From positions 78,799 through 114,465 of the forward strand of contig QEXY01000005.1 of assembly GCA_003130875.1 (NCBI GenBank): a stretch of DNA of 35,667 nt. Direction: 5' to 3'. Of the stretch, positions 6,657 to 13,930 are shown piece by piece. Source of the DNA: Ardenticatenia bacterium (GTDB lineage: Bacteria; Chloroflexota; Anaerolineae; 4572-78; NAK82). The position numbers were made by a program, and so were the translations under genes. How positions within the stretch are numbered: the first letter of the stretch is position 1; each line of letters begins with the position of its first letter. A model generated the notes under the pieces. It saw only the letters and a program-made list of their open reading frames with translations. It was not told the origin of the DNA and searched no databases.

Positions 6657-8906
6657 CTACTTGTCTTGATTCTCCCACCAGCGCATCAGAGCAGCAAAGG
6701 GTAATGCTTGTCCCTTGGGCCGCTGGTCATCGGAGCCTGTGTTCCAGGTGATGATCAGCTCCCTACGTGCACGGGTGATGCCGACATAGAACAGGCGCAA
6801 CCGCTCAGCGGCGTAATCCAGGCGTGCTTGTTGGGTGGCAGCGCCCTCCATATATGCTGAAGGTCTCCCTTCACACAGCACACGCAGTTGTTCCAATGCC
6901 TCAGCTTGTAGATTGAGGCGGTCACGTATGTACCAGGGTTCGGCTATGTAGGTGTCTTCCGGCTGGGCCGAGGGAAAATCGTAGTGATTCACCGAGGTCA
7001 GGTAGACGCGATCCCACTCCAGGCCTTTGGCACGGTGCATCGTGGCGACTGTCACCTCGCCAGGGCGCGGCTCATAAGCGGTTTCGCTGAAGCCCATAAA
7101 ACGGCGCTCATTGCGCGCGATTGCTTCCAGTTCCCTTGCCAGCTCCTCCAACCGCCAATCAAAGTTCAGCATTTGGAGGGTGCGCAGCTCGACCGCCAGC
7201 TTATGCGCTAGTGCCAGATCGGCCGGTTCGGTGAAGAGGTCATTGGCCACCATCAGCATCAGCTGGTCAACTGGCAATATGGCCGCTGCCTGCCAGCGCC
7301 GCACTCGTTCGCGGAATCCTGCCAGCAAGCTAGCCGTGCGAGCATCGCTTTGCACTTCCGATGGCAGGCTTCCCTCGCCGGTATTCCCGTCTATGGGCCA
7401 GAGGTATCCCTCAATGTAGCGCAGGCGCTCCAGCCAGGCGCTGATAGCACGCCCATGTTCCAGGGGGATGAACGTGTCAGCACGGGTGCTTTGCCAGTCC
7501 TCAAACACCTTTTTCAGGTGAAGGCCCTCGGTCGGTTTGCTGAGATGGCGCAGCACATGGCCCAGGATCTCGGCAGCGGAACGCGTGGCCGGCGGGTTGT
7601 CCAGCAGCTCAACAGTTTTGATACCCGCTTGGCGCAACGCATCGGCCATTTGCGCTCCGCGCCGATTGCTGGGCACCAGCACGGCTACGGTTGCACCTGG
7701 ATGTGCCTCGGCTTGCGCCATCCAGTGGCGCACCGATTTGACGACCGCCTGCAGCTCTTGTTCCGGCGTGTAGGCATAGCTAACCAGGTATACCTGTGCC
7801 GGCGCATCAGGTGGATTGGGCTGCGGGTCACCTGGCGGCGATGGCTCGATGAGAGGAGGAGTCAACGCGTCGCGCAATGCAGCCACTGGATGCGCCCGCT
7901 GAGTCCATTCGATCAGCGCATTGGCCAGACGGATGATCGACGGTTGAGAACGACCGGAATGGGGCAGTTCCCAACAACGCACGCCCGGCTCGCGCATAAA
8001 GTTGCGCAAGTACTGAGGACTGGCATTGGTGAAGGTGTAATAGATTGACTGATTGGGATCACCGACGCGCACCCATCCACCTTCGGGATGGTCAGCCAAC
8101 AAGCGCAGTATATCCTCTTGGGAACGACTGCTGTCCTGGGCTTCATCTTCGAGTATGTAGGGCCATTGGCGACGCAAGCGCGCCAGAAAGTCGGGATCTA
8201 TCGTGAGGATATGGTGGGCCAGGCGGATCAGATCATCGAAATCCACCCCACCGCGCGCGGCCAGGCGATGCTGGTAATCAGCGTAGACCTCCGCACCCAT
8301 GCGGGCAAGCGGGAGATCAACAGACGCAGCGGCCAAGTATCCTTGCAGTTGCTCGACGGTTACCCGCCAATCCTTGGCGCGCTTAATAAATGCACGTGCG
8401 ATATCACGCATGAGCTCTGGCCATTTTTCCCTTAAGACCCATCTTCGGCTTTTCGCGCTCATATCTTCGCGCGTCAGATAATACTCGGAGAAGTCAGGAT
8501 TGGCATAGCACCAATCCTGCACAGTGTCCTCCAGAATGCGCGCTGCTTCGCCTTCGTCTACGATGACGAAATCCTCCGACAATCCGGCCAATCCAGGGCG
8601 TTGGCGCACGATATCATGCGCCAGGCCATGCAATGTGCGCACGCGGTATCCCATACCCGGCAGCAGGTTCATCTCCTTGATGAAGCTGGCAATGCGCAAG
8701 CGGAAATTGTCCACCGCCGCGTTAACCAGGGTGACAATCAGCACTTCCTGGTCCTCGGTGATTTTGTTGACCACCAGCTGGGCAGCCAGATAGGACAGGG
8801 TATGTGTCTTGCCACTGCCCGGCACAGCGCTGATGGCCATCTTACCGCCGTTGGCCAGGTAGTCTTCCACAACCTCCAGTTGACGCAGGCGCGGGATAAA
8901 GGTCAT
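6657..8906 (-). CDS. UvrD/PcrA-like SF1A DNA helicase
   Basis: 749 residues. An ATP-dependent 3'-5' DNA helicase of superfamily 1A. Motifs in order: Walker A AVPGSGKT (27-34); TLHGLA (Ib); DFDDLI near 222-227; motif II EDEAQD with D254/E255; motif III VGDPNQSIYYTF (281-292); motif V TMHRAKGLEWD from about 622; motif VI RLFYVGITRARRELI near the C-terminus. The protein ends soon after motif VI, so there is no RecB-type nuclease domain. Its ATG directly follows the TAG of the gene upstream (TAGATG on the minus strand), implying strict translational coupling with the degenerate UvrD-like partner. Inferred role: repair or recombination helicase acting as a heterodimer. It is not a canonical UvrD, since that is normally a lone gene. 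Confidence 0.9.
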   Translation of the reverse strand: MTFIPRLRQLEVVEDYLANGGKMAISAVPGSGKTHTLSYLAAQLVVNKITEDQEVLIVTLVNAAVDNFRLRIASFIKEMNLLPGMGYRVRTLHGLAHDIVRQRPGLAGLSEDFVIVDEGEAARILEDTVQDWCYANPDFSEYYLTREDMSAKSRRWVLREKWPELMRDIARAFIKRAKDWRVTVEQLQGYLAAASVDLPLARMGAEVYADYQHRLAARGGVDFDDLIRLAHHILTIDPDFLARLRRQWPYILEDEAQDSSRSQEDILRLLADHPEGGWVRVGDPNQSIYYTFTNASPQYLRNFMREPGVRCWELPHSGRSQPSIIRLANALIEWTQRAHPVAALRDALTPPLIEPSPPGDPQPNPPDAPAQVYLVSYAYTPEQELQAVVKSVRHWMAQAEAHPGATVAVLVPSNRRGAQMADALRQAGIKTVELLDNPPATRSAAEILGHVLRHLSKPTEGLHLKKVFEDWQSTRADTFIPLEHGRAISAWLERLRYIEGYLWPIDGNTGEGSLPSEVQSDARTASLLAGFRERVRRWQAAAILPVDQLMLMVANDLFTEPADLALAHKLAVELRTLQMLNFDWRLEELARELEAIARNERRFMGFSETAYEPRPGEVTVATMHRAKGLEWDRVYLTSVNHYDFPSAQPEDTYIAEPWYIRDRLNLQAEALEQLRVLCEGRPSAYMEGAATQQARLDYAAERLRLFYVGITRARRELIITWNTGSDDQRPKGQALPFAALMRWWENQDK

Positions 8907-11099
8907 CTAACGCACCCTCCGCAATGCGGACTGGATCGCACGCAGGAGAGGGCCACGCTGCTCATAGCCCTGTTCGTTGAGATCACTAATGCCTATATAG
9001 ATACCGCGACGGCAGCGATAGGCCAACCCGACTACCAGGCGATATAATGCTTCCTGACGCGTGTTGAACTCGTCTTCGTCGTTCCATGGCCGGCCCACTT
9101 CCCACTCGCGCCGCAACACGTAGGGATGGGTAAGGGGTTGATAGATGCGCTCCCACCAGCCCATGCTGCTGACATCCAGCCAGAACTGGTAGTCCACAAA
9201 CCGATTAGTCATCAAAAAACTATAAGCAGGTGCCAGCAGCACGGCTTTCTTTGATGTGTCTCGCTCATCTGGCAGATAGGTGGCCGCCAACAATCGACGT
9301 TGAACCATCTGGATAAAGCGTACACCCGGGGGGAGTGCGTCGGACAGGCCGGGCACCATCTCAAGTGCTTGGCGGAATTTGCGTGCCGATTCGATCAACT
9401 GCGCAGCGACGCGCGCGTTGTCCAGTGCGTGCGAAGTACCGGGTGCGGCAGGAGGGATGGCAACATAGTGATGGAAACCATATCCGTGATGGGAGAGGAC
9501 TTCGCCGAACAGGCGGCCCAAAAAGTGATCCACCATTTCCTCGCCTGCAGGACAGGTGTGCTGATAGTTCAACAGCCATTCGCGCAACACTTCATAGCGT
9601 TCGCCAACCGAAGGGGTGATGCGTTCGCGCGTATCACCTTGGACGTTCCGAAAGGAGCTCAACCACGGCGTCTGATGGGGCCGATAGACCACTTCGGTCA
9701 ACAGCCAGGCGCGCACCAGGTCCAGCCCGGCGACCGCTTGCATCAGCGCGAGTATCACATCAAATTTAGGTGGCTGCATCTGCCAGTGTGGGTGCGCCAG
9801 CTGGGTCAGCGTCAGCATGCAGCGCGCTGCCGGCTCATCCCACAGGGCACGCGAGGGACGATGGGAACGAGCCGGGATTGCTCGTGCGACCAGCCGCTCC
9901 AGGAGCGAAAAGCGGAGTGCATCATCTACAAAGGGCGCCAGCACAACGATTTCACCGGGCGACACACCCTCTCTCCGGATCAGACACTCAATTTGTTCTG
10001 CCACCCAGTCCAGCATCTGGGGGTGGAAACGACACTCCTGATCGCCCGGGGCGTGCAGGATGCGCCGGAAGTCGGGAGCGGCTGTCTCGTCCAGCCAGTG
10101 CAATATATGAGCGCTGTCACGGTTTAGACTCAATCCAATTTGGTAGGCCAGGTGGAGCACATCTGGCGATGCGACCAATGGACGCGAAAACTCCCAACGA
10201 TATGCGCATGTGTCAGACAGGCGCACGGCACTATGCGGATCTGCACCCAAGAAGATGCGATGACCTCCCGATTCATCGTACACGATAAAGGCGGATTCGC
10301 AGTGGCGTACCCATTCGCTCAACAGATCGTGCATGATAGGAGTTTCCTCCTCCAGATTGTCCACGATCAGATGACGATAACGCTCGAAGAGATACGCTTG
10401 CACCGCCGGCTGCGGATACAGATGCTGCACAAACGTATGGATCTGTAACGAGAAGTCGAGTAAATTATGCGCCAGACAATAGCTCCGGAATCGCTGCACA
10501 CATTCGCCGACCTGGTCGAACACGCGTCGGTGCGCTGCCTCTCCTGTCCATGCACTCTTCAGTCGTTCCGCCACCTCGGACAAGGGGATGCCGGTCAACG
10601 CCGCTTTGTTCAAGTTGTCGAGTAATTGGCTGAGAAGGCGGCTGCGCTCGATGGTGATGCCCTCGAAGTAGCGTTCTCGCTCTATCAAAGGGGCGACAAT
10701 GTGGTCCATGAAATATTGCGCCGTCTCCACAGTGAGAAAGACAGGAGGACGTGTGGGATGGGCGAAGCCAGCACGCTCACCGATCAATGGCCAGAACAGG
10801 CGAATGACACGGCGCGCCAGTCCATCGAACGTCAAGATGTCCACCGCGCCGGCTGGACCAAGCGTCGGATCCCGCAGAGCCTGGTAATAGGGTGTAGCAA
10901 GCAGCCTTTGTGGCAACAATACCAAAATAGCTGTCGTCGGCATGCCTTGACGCAGTAGATAGCGCAACCGCTCGACCGCCAATGTGGTCTTGCCGCTGCC
11001 AGGTGGTCCCTGCACAAACATTTTGACGCGGGGACTCCAGAGGAGCGCCTGTTGCTCTGGATTGAGGATGTCCAATTCTGTCGCTTCAAAAGTCGCCAT
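8907..11099 (-). CDS. UvrD/AddB-superfamily ATPase with degenerate helicase motifs
   Basis: 730 residues from ATG 11099; the frame extends 29 codons upstream to 11186, but that part overlaps the divergent gene and its promoter. Seen: NPEQQALL (Q-motif-like, 13-20), intact Walker A GPPGSGKT (31-38), and TFDGLARRV (motif Ib-like). At the motif II position the sequence is IVDNLEEETP, so the usual D-E pair is D-N. The motif III equivalent is the unusual YDESGGHRIFLGADP. The motif VI equivalent near the C-terminus is EALYRLVVGLAYRCRRGIYI, recognisable but lacking the T-R-A signature. There is no nuclease domain and no Fe-S cysteine set as in AddB. Inferred: a structural or DNA-recognition partner of the active helicase encoded immediately downstream, an AddAB- or RecBC-like arrangement without nucleases. 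Confidence 0.72.
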   Translation of the reverse strand: MATFEATELDILNPEQQALLWSPRVKMFVQGPPGSGKTTLAVERLRYLLRQGMPTTAILVLLPQRLLATPYYQALRDPTLGPAGAVDILTFDGLARRVIRLFWPLIGERAGFAHPTRPPVFLTVETAQYFMDHIVAPLIERERYFEGITIERSRLLSQLLDNLNKAALTGIPLSEVAERLKSAWTGEAAHRRVFDQVGECVQRFRSYCLAHNLLDFSLQIHTFVQHLYPQPAVQAYLFERYRHLIVDNLEEETPIMHDLLSEWVRHCESAFIVYDESGGHRIFLGADPHSAVRLSDTCAYRWEFSRPLVASPDVLHLAYQIGLSLNRDSAHILHWLDETAAPDFRRILHAPGDQECRFHPQMLDWVAEQIECLIRREGVSPGEIVVLAPFVDDALRFSLLERLVARAIPARSHRPSRALWDEPAARCMLTLTQLAHPHWQMQPPKFDVILALMQAVAGLDLVRAWLLTEVVYRPHQTPWLSSFRNVQGDTRERITPSVGERYEVLREWLLNYQHTCPAGEEMVDHFLGRLFGEVLSHHGYGFHHYVAIPPAAPGTSHALDNARVAAQLIESARKFRQALEMVPGLSDALPPGVRFIQMVQRRLLAATYLPDERDTSKKAVLLAPAYSFLMTNRFVDYQFWLDVSSMGWWERIYQPLTHPYVLRREWEVGRPWNDEDEFNTRQEALYRLVVGLAYRCRRGIYIGISDLNEQGYEQRGPLLRAIQSALRRVR

Positions 11100-11129
11100 G
11101 CTACAATAATGCCCAACCCGCAGCTCGAT

Positions 11130-11159
11130 AGTATATACGACTTGGTTGCAGAACCACAA
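11130..11159 (-). promoter_or_regulatory. Candidate promoter for the helicase pair
   Basis: Minus strand: TTGTGG (11154-11159) and TATACT (11130-11135), spacer 18 nt, predicted start about 24 nt upstream of ATG 11099. The -35 box overlaps the start codon of the divergent NUDIX gene, so the two genes may compete for polymerase or be co-regulated. Confidence 0.45.
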
Positions 11160-11629
11160 TGAGCGCTCGTTACACGGTATATCCACGTACCTTGGTTTTC
11201 TTGATCAGGGGGGATGAGGTGCTCCTCATTCGACGTCCCGCCGATGCGCGTCTGTTCCCTGGCTTGTTCAACGGTGTTGGCGGGCATATGGAACGGGGTG
11301 AGGATGTTCTTTCCGCAGCGCTCCGGGAGGTAAAGGAAGAAACCGGTTTGCGCGTTGAGACACTACAATTGCGAGCCATCCTCAGTGTCGCGCACTCGCA
11401 GCTCACTCGGGATGATGGGGAACGCACAAGTGATGATGAGCCAGGGGCGTTGGTGTTCATCTTTGTCGGGTATGCGTCGGTGGGTGAGATAACCTCGGGG
11501 GAGGCAGGCGCGTCATCCTGGGTGCCGCTAGATCGTTTGGGCGAGCTGCCGGTGGTGCCGGATCTACACGACCTTTTGCCGCGCATTCTCGGGCATCACG
11601 ACACAATGCCTCTCTTCCTGAGTGCATAA
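11159..11629 (+). CDS. NUDIX hydrolase (MutT-like)
   Basis: 156 residues, typical NUDIX length. The Nudix box is complete: G, five residues, E, seven residues, then REVKEETGL (GHMERGE followed by the REVKEETGL segment, about residues 42-64). These acidic residues bind Mg2+ for hydrolysis of a nucleoside diphosphate linked to another moiety; the substrate (8-oxo-dGTP or another) cannot be told from sequence. No clear Shine-Dalgarno precedes ATG 11159. It is divergent from the helicase pair with overlapping promoter space, and lies 60 nt upstream of the Clp-like gene on the same strand, so co-transcription with it is likely. Confidence 0.9.
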   Translation: MSARYTVYPRTLVFLIRGDEVLLIRRPADARLFPGLFNGVGGHMERGEDVLSAALREVKEETGLRVETLQLRAILSVAHSQLTRDDGERTSDDEPGALVFIFVGYASVGEITSGEAGASSWVPLDRLGELPVVPDLHDLLPRILGHHDTMPLFLSA

Positions 11630-11689
11630 TTGTCGACCGAAGAGGCTGATACCGGAGAGATTTCATTGTACGATGGGAGGTCTCGCCAG

Positions 11690-13930
11690 ATGGCGGATGG
11701 GACGCACGCGCGTGGTACACTTAACCCCAAGCTGGTGAGCAAAGAACTGGAGCTCACCCTCAACGCAGCTGCGGTACGATTGGACGCGCTCGGTCATAAG
11801 GTCTTGACCCCGGAAATCTTGCTCCTCACCTTTGTCGAAAGCCCTCAGGCAAACGCTCATCGGATGTTACAGCAGTTGATTGTGGTGCGTGGCCATCGTT
11901 GGGAACGTTTCGTGGAGGAGGTTTCTGCACTTGCCCGCGGACGTACCGCGCCGGATGTGGAATTTGATTGGGTCGCATATGGTAACCGGCGTGTGCCTCT
12001 ATCGGATGAGCTGCTGGTCGTACTAGACGAAGCGCTCACCCTGGCGCGTGCCCGTGAGGAAGTGTACATCGGAACCGAGCATGTCCTGGTAGGCATGACC
12101 GACCGACGCGTCGCAGCAGCCCGCCTGCTCGACAACTATGGGATCACACCCCGTGCCGCTCAGGATATGCTCGCCGTTCTCAGCGCTGCACGCGATACGA
12201 CCACGACCGACTACGTCGCGTTGGCGAAGCAAGGAGAGATTACCCCGGTATACTTCCGGGAACGTCTGTTGCGTGACCTGATCGGTCTGCTCACTCTGAA
12301 AACCCATCGCAATGTGATACTGGTCGGCGCGGCGGGGGTGGGAAAGCGTTCGCTTGTTTACAGCCTGGCACTCCTCATAGCGGAAGGCAAAGGCCCGCCT
12401 GGGCTGAAAAGCGTGGTAGTGATCAATGAACAGGCGTTGCTCGACAACGCCCTAACTGCTGTGCAGAGCGGGTTGCGTCGTGCCAAAGGGGGTATCCTGT
12501 TCGTGCCGCACATCGCGCGCTTCTTCGGTGGATTGCACAGCGAGTTTCCAGAGACGGCAGGCAGGGAGCTGCAGAAAGCGTTTCTCGATGACGAAATCGC
12601 CGTCATCGGCAGCGCTACAGAGGCCGAATCCACAGAGCGTCTCCAGCCCAACACCGTGCTCAGCGAGCGTGCGCATGTATTGCGCGTCGAGCCTGCCACA
12701 CCGGAAGAAACGGTCGCCATCCTAGATGTCATCCGGCCACGTATTGCTGCGGATTATGGGGTGTGTCTCGCCGAGGAGAGCTTGCGGGAAGCTGCCAAGC
12801 TGGCCGGGCGCTATTTGAGCGATACTCCACTGCCGGCCAGCGCCGTGTATCTGTTGCACCGCACGTGTGCAATGGTTCATATGGGCCTGCACTCCGGTGT
12901 GAGCTGGCAGCCTGAATCGGCCCGAGACGAGACAGTGGATGCTGAAGATGTCATGCTCATGGTCAGTCAGCTGACTGGCATACCGGTCCGGCGGCTTGGC
13001 GCTGATGAGCGTGCCCGCTATGCCAACATGGTAGAGCATTTACGAGAACGTGTCATCGGACAGGATGAGGCGGTGTTGGCAGTAAGTCGCGCCGTCAAGA
13101 TGGCACGGGCCGGCCTCAAAGATCCACGCCGCCCGGTCGGCTCTTTCTTCTTCCTGGGTCCTACCGGGGTGGGCAAAACGGAGTTGGCCAAGGCGCTGGC
13201 AGAGTTCCTGTTCGGCAGTGAGGAGGCTATGGTCGTGCTCGACATGACCGAGTTCCAGGACGAGAATGCGGTGAGTCGACTGATCGGTGCGCCGCCCGGC
13301 TACGTGGGCTACGAAGAAGGTGGCCAGCTTACCGAAAGGGTAGCAAGGACGCCTTACGCGGTAGTGTTGTTCGACGAGGCAGAGAAGGCGCATCCGCGCG
13401 TCTTGGACGTGCTGTTGCAGGTCATGGAAGAAGGAAGGCTGACGGATGGCAAGGGACGCACTGTCAACTTTTCCGAGACGGTGATCATCCTCACCAGCAA
13501 TATCGGCAGCCAGTACTTATCGGATCCTCAGCTGCCTGTCACGGTCGCACGCGAAGCCGCGCAGGAGGAATTGAAACGCCACTTCCGACCGGAATTTCTC
13601 AATCGCTTCAGCGAGATTGTGTTTTTCAACCGCCTGGACGAGACAACTTTGCGTGCGATTTTGGATTTGCAGATCCATAAGGAGATCGCCTTAGCGGCGG
13701 AGCGCGCCATCACGCTGGAAGTCACCGAGATGGCGCGCTCGTGGTTGTTGCGGCAGAACGATCAACCTGAATGGGGCGCCCGGCCGTTGCGGCGCATTAT
13801 CGAGCGCTATATTCGTGAGCCTCTGGCGGACTGGATCCTGCGCCAAAATCCTGCGCCGGGTGCCATAGTGCGGATCGATGTAGAAGCAGAGCGCCTGGTA
13901 CTCCTGCCGACGCGGAACGAGCCCATCTAA
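11690..13930 (+). CDS. Clp/Hsp100 AAA+ protein with a degenerate first ATPase domain
   Basis: 746 residues from ATG 11690, chosen for GGGAGG at 11675-11680; the frame also opens at TTG 11630, directly after the NUDIX stop. Order: double Clp-N repeat (about 10-165), AAA-1, AAA-2, C-terminal D2-small domain. AAA-1 keeps Walker A GAAGVGKRS (213-221), but its Walker B reads ILFVPHIARF, so the D-E pair is P273-H274 and ATP hydrolysis there should be lost. AAA-2 is intact: GPTGVGKT (490-497), LFDEAEKAHP with D562/E563, sensor TSNIGS. There is no ClpB/ClpC coiled-coil middle domain (only a short linker before LTGIPVRRL) and no obvious IGF/VGF ClpP-docking tripeptide in the D2 loop. Inferred: a divergent unfoldase or disaggregase, perhaps independent of ClpP. 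Confidence 0.85.
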   Translation: MADGTHARGTLNPKLVSKELELTLNAAAVRLDALGHKVLTPEILLLTFVESPQANAHRMLQQLIVVRGHRWERFVEEVSALARGRTAPDVEFDWVAYGNRRVPLSDELLVVLDEALTLARAREEVYIGTEHVLVGMTDRRVAAARLLDNYGITPRAAQDMLAVLSAARDTTTTDYVALAKQGEITPVYFRERLLRDLIGLLTLKTHRNVILVGAAGVGKRSLVYSLALLIAEGKGPPGLKSVVVINEQALLDNALTAVQSGLRRAKGGILFVPHIARFFGGLHSEFPETAGRELQKAFLDDEIAVIGSATEAESTERLQPNTVLSERAHVLRVEPATPEETVAILDVIRPRIAADYGVCLAEESLREAAKLAGRYLSDTPLPASAVYLLHRTCAMVHMGLHSGVSWQPESARDETVDAEDVMLMVSQLTGIPVRRLGADERARYANMVEHLRERVIGQDEAVLAVSRAVKMARAGLKDPRRPVGSFFFLGPTGVGKTELAKALAEFLFGSEEAMVVLDMTEFQDENAVSRLIGAPPGYVGYEEGGQLTERVARTPYAVVLFDEAEKAHPRVLDVLLQVMEEGRLTDGKGRTVNFSETVIILTSNIGSQYLSDPQLPVTVAREAAQEELKRHFRPEFLNRFSEIVFFNRLDETTLRAILDLQIHKEIALAAERAITLEVTEMARSWLLRQNDQPEWGARPLRRIIERYIREPLADWILRQNPAPGAIVRIDVEAERLVLLPTRNEPI

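Follow-up and report, generated by a model that had tools for sequence, protein, structure and literature searches.

A conserved Chloroflexota Hsp100 protein with a degenerate first ATPase ring, an intact second ring, and no ClpP-docking loop

The Hsp100 gene at this locus raises the question of whether a seemingly dead first ATPase ring is a local accident or the mark of a distinct subfamily, and what such a ring could still do. The window, which is the whole stretch of DNA that was analyzed, comprises 35,667 nucleotides of an Ardenticatenia bacterium (contig QEXY01000005.1). The coding sequence (11690..13930, + strand) encodes 746 amino acids from the ATG at 11690, and the relatives align from the start at RGTLNP. 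An alternative in-frame TTG at 11630, with which the 766-aa reading frame would directly abut the upstream NUDIX gene, is the less likely start.

The AlphaFold model (mean pLDDT 87.5, pTM 0.59) comprised two four-helix Clp-N repeats, a complete AAA-1 with its lid, and AAA-2 with a small domain; the placement of AAA-1 relative to AAA-2 is unsure because of the pTM value. The N-terminal double Clp-N domain (11690..12199, +) has helices at residues 18-34, 41-50, 55-66, and 71-84 in the first repeat and 106-121, 129-135, 143-149, and 154-165 in the second, and only the second repeat was matched by Pfam Clp_N. The degenerate AAA-1 (D1; 12209..12919, +) was modelled with a complete AAA+ fold, and it matched the lid AAA_lid_9 and not the AAA core among the Pfam models for Clp AAA-1. 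Over the whole protein, the Pfam matches were Clp_N, AAA_lid_9, AAA_2 (2e-62), and ClpB_D2-small (2e-17), while the AAA core PF00004 matched AAA-2 only. The top fold matches of the model were ClpC, ClpB, and ClpA structures. Pfam, the model, and the fold matches all agree with the Hsp100/Clp class I layout of two AAA+ modules, a Clp-type AAA-2, and a D2-small domain. The class is also defined by two ATPase-competent modules, and here AAA-1 has lost the Walker A threonine and the Walker B D-E.

The preliminary description had regarded the Walker A motif of AAA-1 as intact, which proved to be wrong. The motif reads GAAGVGKRS (12326..12352, +) versus the canonical AAA-1 GxPGVGKT, with arginine in place of the magnesium-binding threonine. 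This threonine was replaced in all of the 150 non-redundant relatives (R 147, K 2, Q 1), and the lysine position was occupied by K in 117 and by R in 33 of them. The three glycines of the P-loop were invariant or near-invariant. The replacement of the Walker B D-E by P273-H274 was confirmed together with its coordinates, since the strand ILFVPHIARFFGG (12494..12532, +) carries P-H followed by R-F. The idea that the orthologues keep D-E at this position failed, as the pair was present in 0/150 relatives. The pairs found were P-H (75), P-N (34), P-D (13), and others; the Asp position held P in 136, A in 10, S in 2, D in 1, and R in 1, the Glu position mostly held H, N, or D and E in 0/150, and the following R-F was invariant.

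Two further losses in AAA-1 had been overlooked. Alignment with ClpB and ClpC indicated that pore loop 1 (GAKYRGEFE type) is deleted (region 12401..12472, +), and this stretch had exactly 24 residues in 150/150 relatives, approximately six fewer than in ClpB. The arginine finger is lost as well, with SERAH aligned to ERRFQ (12656..12688, +), and among the 150 relatives the finger of ERRF was replaced by H, N, or, in 13 cases, R. Judging from these residues, AAA-1 is without the means for ATP hydrolysis by the known mechanism and without a pore loop. With the P-loop glycines and mostly the lysine retained, it may nevertheless hold nucleotide statically.

The catalytic motifs of AAA-2, all on the + strand, are intact. 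These are the Walker A motif GPTGVGKT (13157..13180), the pore loop GYVG with an invariant Tyr (13298..13309), the Walker B motif VLFDE (13361..13378) with D-E in 143/143 relatives, and the sensor 2 motif GAR (13775..13783). Walker A, D-E, GYV, TSN, FRPEFLNR, and GAR were near-invariant across the relatives. The stretch between sensor 1 (TSN) and the arginine finger (FRPEFLNR; 13493..13606, +) contains no ClpP-docking loop. The reported absence of an IGF/VGF-type loop was thus upheld by sequence comparison and also by the model, which has a short link and a helix at the loop position. In 139 of the 142 relatives with a complete region (eight fragments without it were left out), the 39-45 residues from TSN to FRPEFLNR were devoid of the tripeptide [LIVM]G[FLY]. 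The exceptions were a chance VGL in L029 and inserts of approximately 100 additional residues at the loop site in L025:187-2733 (-) and L027:1471-4008 (+). Both ClpCs of the same genome served as positive controls, having 49-55 residues with TLGF or AIGF, while the ClpB of this genome had no docking loop in the same stretch. The loop comparison therefore supports the earlier proposal that the protein would act without ClpP.

The reported absence of an M-domain was also borne out. The spacing from the AAA-1 Walker B to the AAA-2 Walker A was 207-239 residues in the family (median 220), compared with 212-213 in ClpA types, 266-269 in ClpC, and 330-334 in ClpB. Accordingly, both model and spacing place no M-domain within or near the AAA-1 lid and the linker between the rings (12893..13006, +), and the model contains no coiled-coil insert. 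Since the M-domain is absent, DnaK is probably not needed.

When 41 related genomes were searched with the N-terminal half of the protein, a clean group emerged at 206-728 bits, with ordinary ClpB and ClpC below 97 bits. An AAA-1 profile found one copy each in 94 of the 298 genomes of the class and in 64 of the 189 good-quality ones (about a third). This count is less biased than a pattern scan of 84,980 species, because the patterns, conserved family stretches including a P-containing Walker B, were drawn from the family itself. The scan returned 107 relatives, and the best 80 of the 107 were Chloroflexota by title, except for two titles that seem to come from misnamed bins. L101 and L129, titled Pleurocapsa minor and Bacteroidetes, also hold the Hsp100 gene; these are probably misassigned bins, since the L129 protein and the Chloroflexota copy L103 share 96% identity. 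To the extent that their origin could be judged, the 150 non-redundant relatives are all from Chloroflexota, and mostly from the class Anaerolineae, a class name taken from the titles of the records. In the wider phylum, just two further genomes, from another class, contained relatives (153 and 160 bits). The distant relatives L265 and L266 (G570, G503) have the same AAA-1 losses (GRR; LPDLHQFFGG). In these two proteins, AAA-1 is flanked on both sides by long low-complexity linkers, and the family reaches beyond the class of the window. L291 (G322), considered as a third distant relative, was rejected because it retains DE as well as a ClpP loop and is a canonical ClpC.

In a first AAA-2 tree, which contained the long branches TssH, ClpL, L236, L238, and L027, 29 family members were placed behind one branch with a support of 100/99, the stem being 0.81 changes per column long. 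In a second tree, from which the long-branch rows were dropped and to which the two distant relatives were added, the 16 dead-AAA-1 rows formed one clade (100/99). The family is therefore a single clade apart from ClpA, ClpB, ClpC, and ClpK, in trees that did not include ClpE, and because this clade comprises the two distant relatives, a single loss of AAA-1 function is enough. The median dN/dS values over 26 close pairs were 0.087 for AAA-1 and 0.087 for AAA-2; two of the pairs duplicate others and synonymous distances reached about 1.5, so that the ratios are rough. Since the value of AAA-1 is as low as that of AAA-2, the dead ring is maintained and not decaying. The view of a distinct subfamily is thus well supported by monophyly (100/99), by the degenerate motifs that the 150 relatives have in common, by the single copy number, and by purifying selection.

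The host genome also encodes ClpB, two ClpC, ClpX, one typical ClpP, and at least two DnaK proteins, and consequently the protein is an extra, specialized Hsp100. Between its AAA-2 and that of the host's own ClpB, the identity is 56%. Across the loci of the relatives, no shared operon partner was found, and the neighbors (GH3 hydrolase, phosphomannomutase, TilS, NUDIX, L25) vary by lineage, so that no partner points to a substrate. A viral scan with the protein, bearing on a phage origin, gave no match. Two adjacent UvrD/Rep-like helicase proteins (window positions 6657-8906 and 8907-11186, - strand) are divergent from the NUDIX-Hsp100 pair. The second is very diverged, matching only Pfam UvrD-helicase (5e-13), and fragments of it adjoin the Hsp100 in L010, L011, and L031. 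In 30 loci (e.g., L139:7739-8329, +), a protein of approximately 196 aa that matched no Pfam family is encoded downstream of the Hsp100.

We consider it probable, with moderate confidence, that the protein is a two-ring and presumably homohexameric Hsp100 that unfolds or remodels its substrates, in which AAA-2 is the only drive and AAA-1 is a passive collar, as in Pex1/Pex6. The double Clp-N domains would capture the substrate. The AAA-1 ring, which keeps the AAA+ fold and the P-loop glycines, would support assembly as a collar and form a passive channel, since it has neither hydrolysis by the known mechanism nor a pore-loop grip. From what is known of the family, the AAA-2 ring with its full catalytic motifs and GYVG loop would pull the chain through, and the unfolded chain would be set free and not degraded because the ClpP-docking loop is absent. 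As one AAA-1 Walker B mutation abrogates disaggregation by ClpL (PMC11006417) and an AAA-1 Walker B mutation lowers that of ClpG about 20-fold (PMC8024975), a naturally dead AAA-1 may mean that less force is generated or that the task is not disaggregation. By analogy, the protein may remodel its substrates more gently instead of disaggregating them. A broader proposal, for and against which we see the case as evenly balanced, is that this separate Chloroflexota subfamily evolved its selection-kept, non-catalytic, and non-gripping collar independently of Pex1/Pex6 and repurposed it for a new selective or regulatory role, such as filtering substrates or acting as an anion-locked gate at the invariant R-F-F and the Walker A Arg.

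The evidence for maintenance of AAA-1 would also suit a static nucleotide sensor, in which ATP/ADP or another anion is held without magnesium or turnover and gates AAA-2. The conserved P-loop glycines, the retained Lys/Arg, and purifying selection equal to that on the live ring are consistent with this reading, whereas the change of the magnesium-binding Thr to Arg in 147/150 and the loss of the Walker B acids and the arginine finger argue against it, and we regard it as unlikely. The presence of ClpB, two ClpC, and ClpX in the same genome, together with the 56% identity of AAA-2 to that of ClpB, might instead suggest a regulatory subunit that mixes into ClpB or ClpC hexamers and tunes them. 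This is distinctly improbable, as AAA-2 has a complete set of catalytic motifs and an arginine finger of its own, the AAA-1 sequence has moved far from those of ClpB and ClpC, and the gene is unlinked to clpB or clpC.

Protease docking, either to ClpP via a divergent loop or to another peptidase, would find a typical ClpP in the genome and inserts of about 100 aa at the loop site in L025 and L027. It is nevertheless at least as improbable, given the short stretch without the tripeptide in 139/142 relatives and the model without a loop. That the gene is a ClpB or ClpC copy in decay, or an artifact of assembly, might be suspected because the data come from metagenome-assembled genomes. However, the 150 relatives have open frames and identical motif losses and come from many independent projects, some on very long contigs, and dN/dS is about 0.09 in both rings, so that the probability of this explanation is practically negligible. 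Local mutation, pseudogene formation, and assembly error are ruled out on the same two grounds.

A search of open-access papers, a scope outside of which most subscription journals and preprints lie, found no description of a dead-AAA-1 Hsp100 group, and this well-conserved Chloroflexota group is apparently undescribed so far. In the disaggregases ClpG and ClpL both rings must be live, to which a naturally dead AAA-1 forms a contrast. The conserved dead ring thus offers a ready-made test of the role of AAA-1 beyond hydrolysis and of single-ring threading, and the protein would be a bacterial counterpart to Pex1/Pex6.

Among known Hsp100 proteins, ClpA shares the two AAA rings, the Clp-N domain, the missing M-domain, and an about equal ring-to-ring spacing. 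Consequently, the missing M-domain alone does not separate the protein from ClpA; what is novel is the combination of features. In ClpA, AAA-1 is live and a ClpP loop is present, the AAA-2 trees separate the two proteins, and the NCBIfam ClpA score was 421 against a cut-off of 993; of the two ClpA rings, D2 acts as the main motor and D1 is auxiliary (PMC9663308). ClpB likewise has no ClpP loop and gave the highest NCBIfam score (TIGR03346, 531 against a cut-off of 1232 bits), but it carries a long M-domain, which is missing here, where AAA-1 is also dead. ClpC shares the double Clp-N domain and is among the top PDB fold matches, whereas the present protein has a dead AAA-1 and neither the short M-domain nor the [LIV]GF loop of ClpC/ClpE, with a spacing of 220 against 266-269 residues. 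ClpL and ClpG are stand-alone disaggregases (PMC11006417, PMC8024975), and ClpL and ClpG/ClpK work without ClpP, as predicted here, but they have an M-domain and depend on a live AAA-1, and both ClpL traits are missing in the present protein. The scores for ClpG (381) and ClpK (365) were far below the cut-off of 1900 bits, and that for TssH was 398 against 885. The closest mechanistic likeness is to the eukaryotic type II AAA+ motor Pex1/Pex6, in which the D1 ring is inactive and without traditional aromatic pore loops and D2 is the sole motor (PMC9265785). The sequence motifs of the present protein follow the same pattern, with a D1 devoid of hydrolysis motifs and aromatic pore loop and a complete D2. 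Pex1/Pex6 is a classic-clade heterohexamer with unrelated N-domains, in contrast to a presumably homohexameric Hsp100 with Clp-N domains, and the likeness is thus one of mechanism, arrived at independently, and not of membership or homology.
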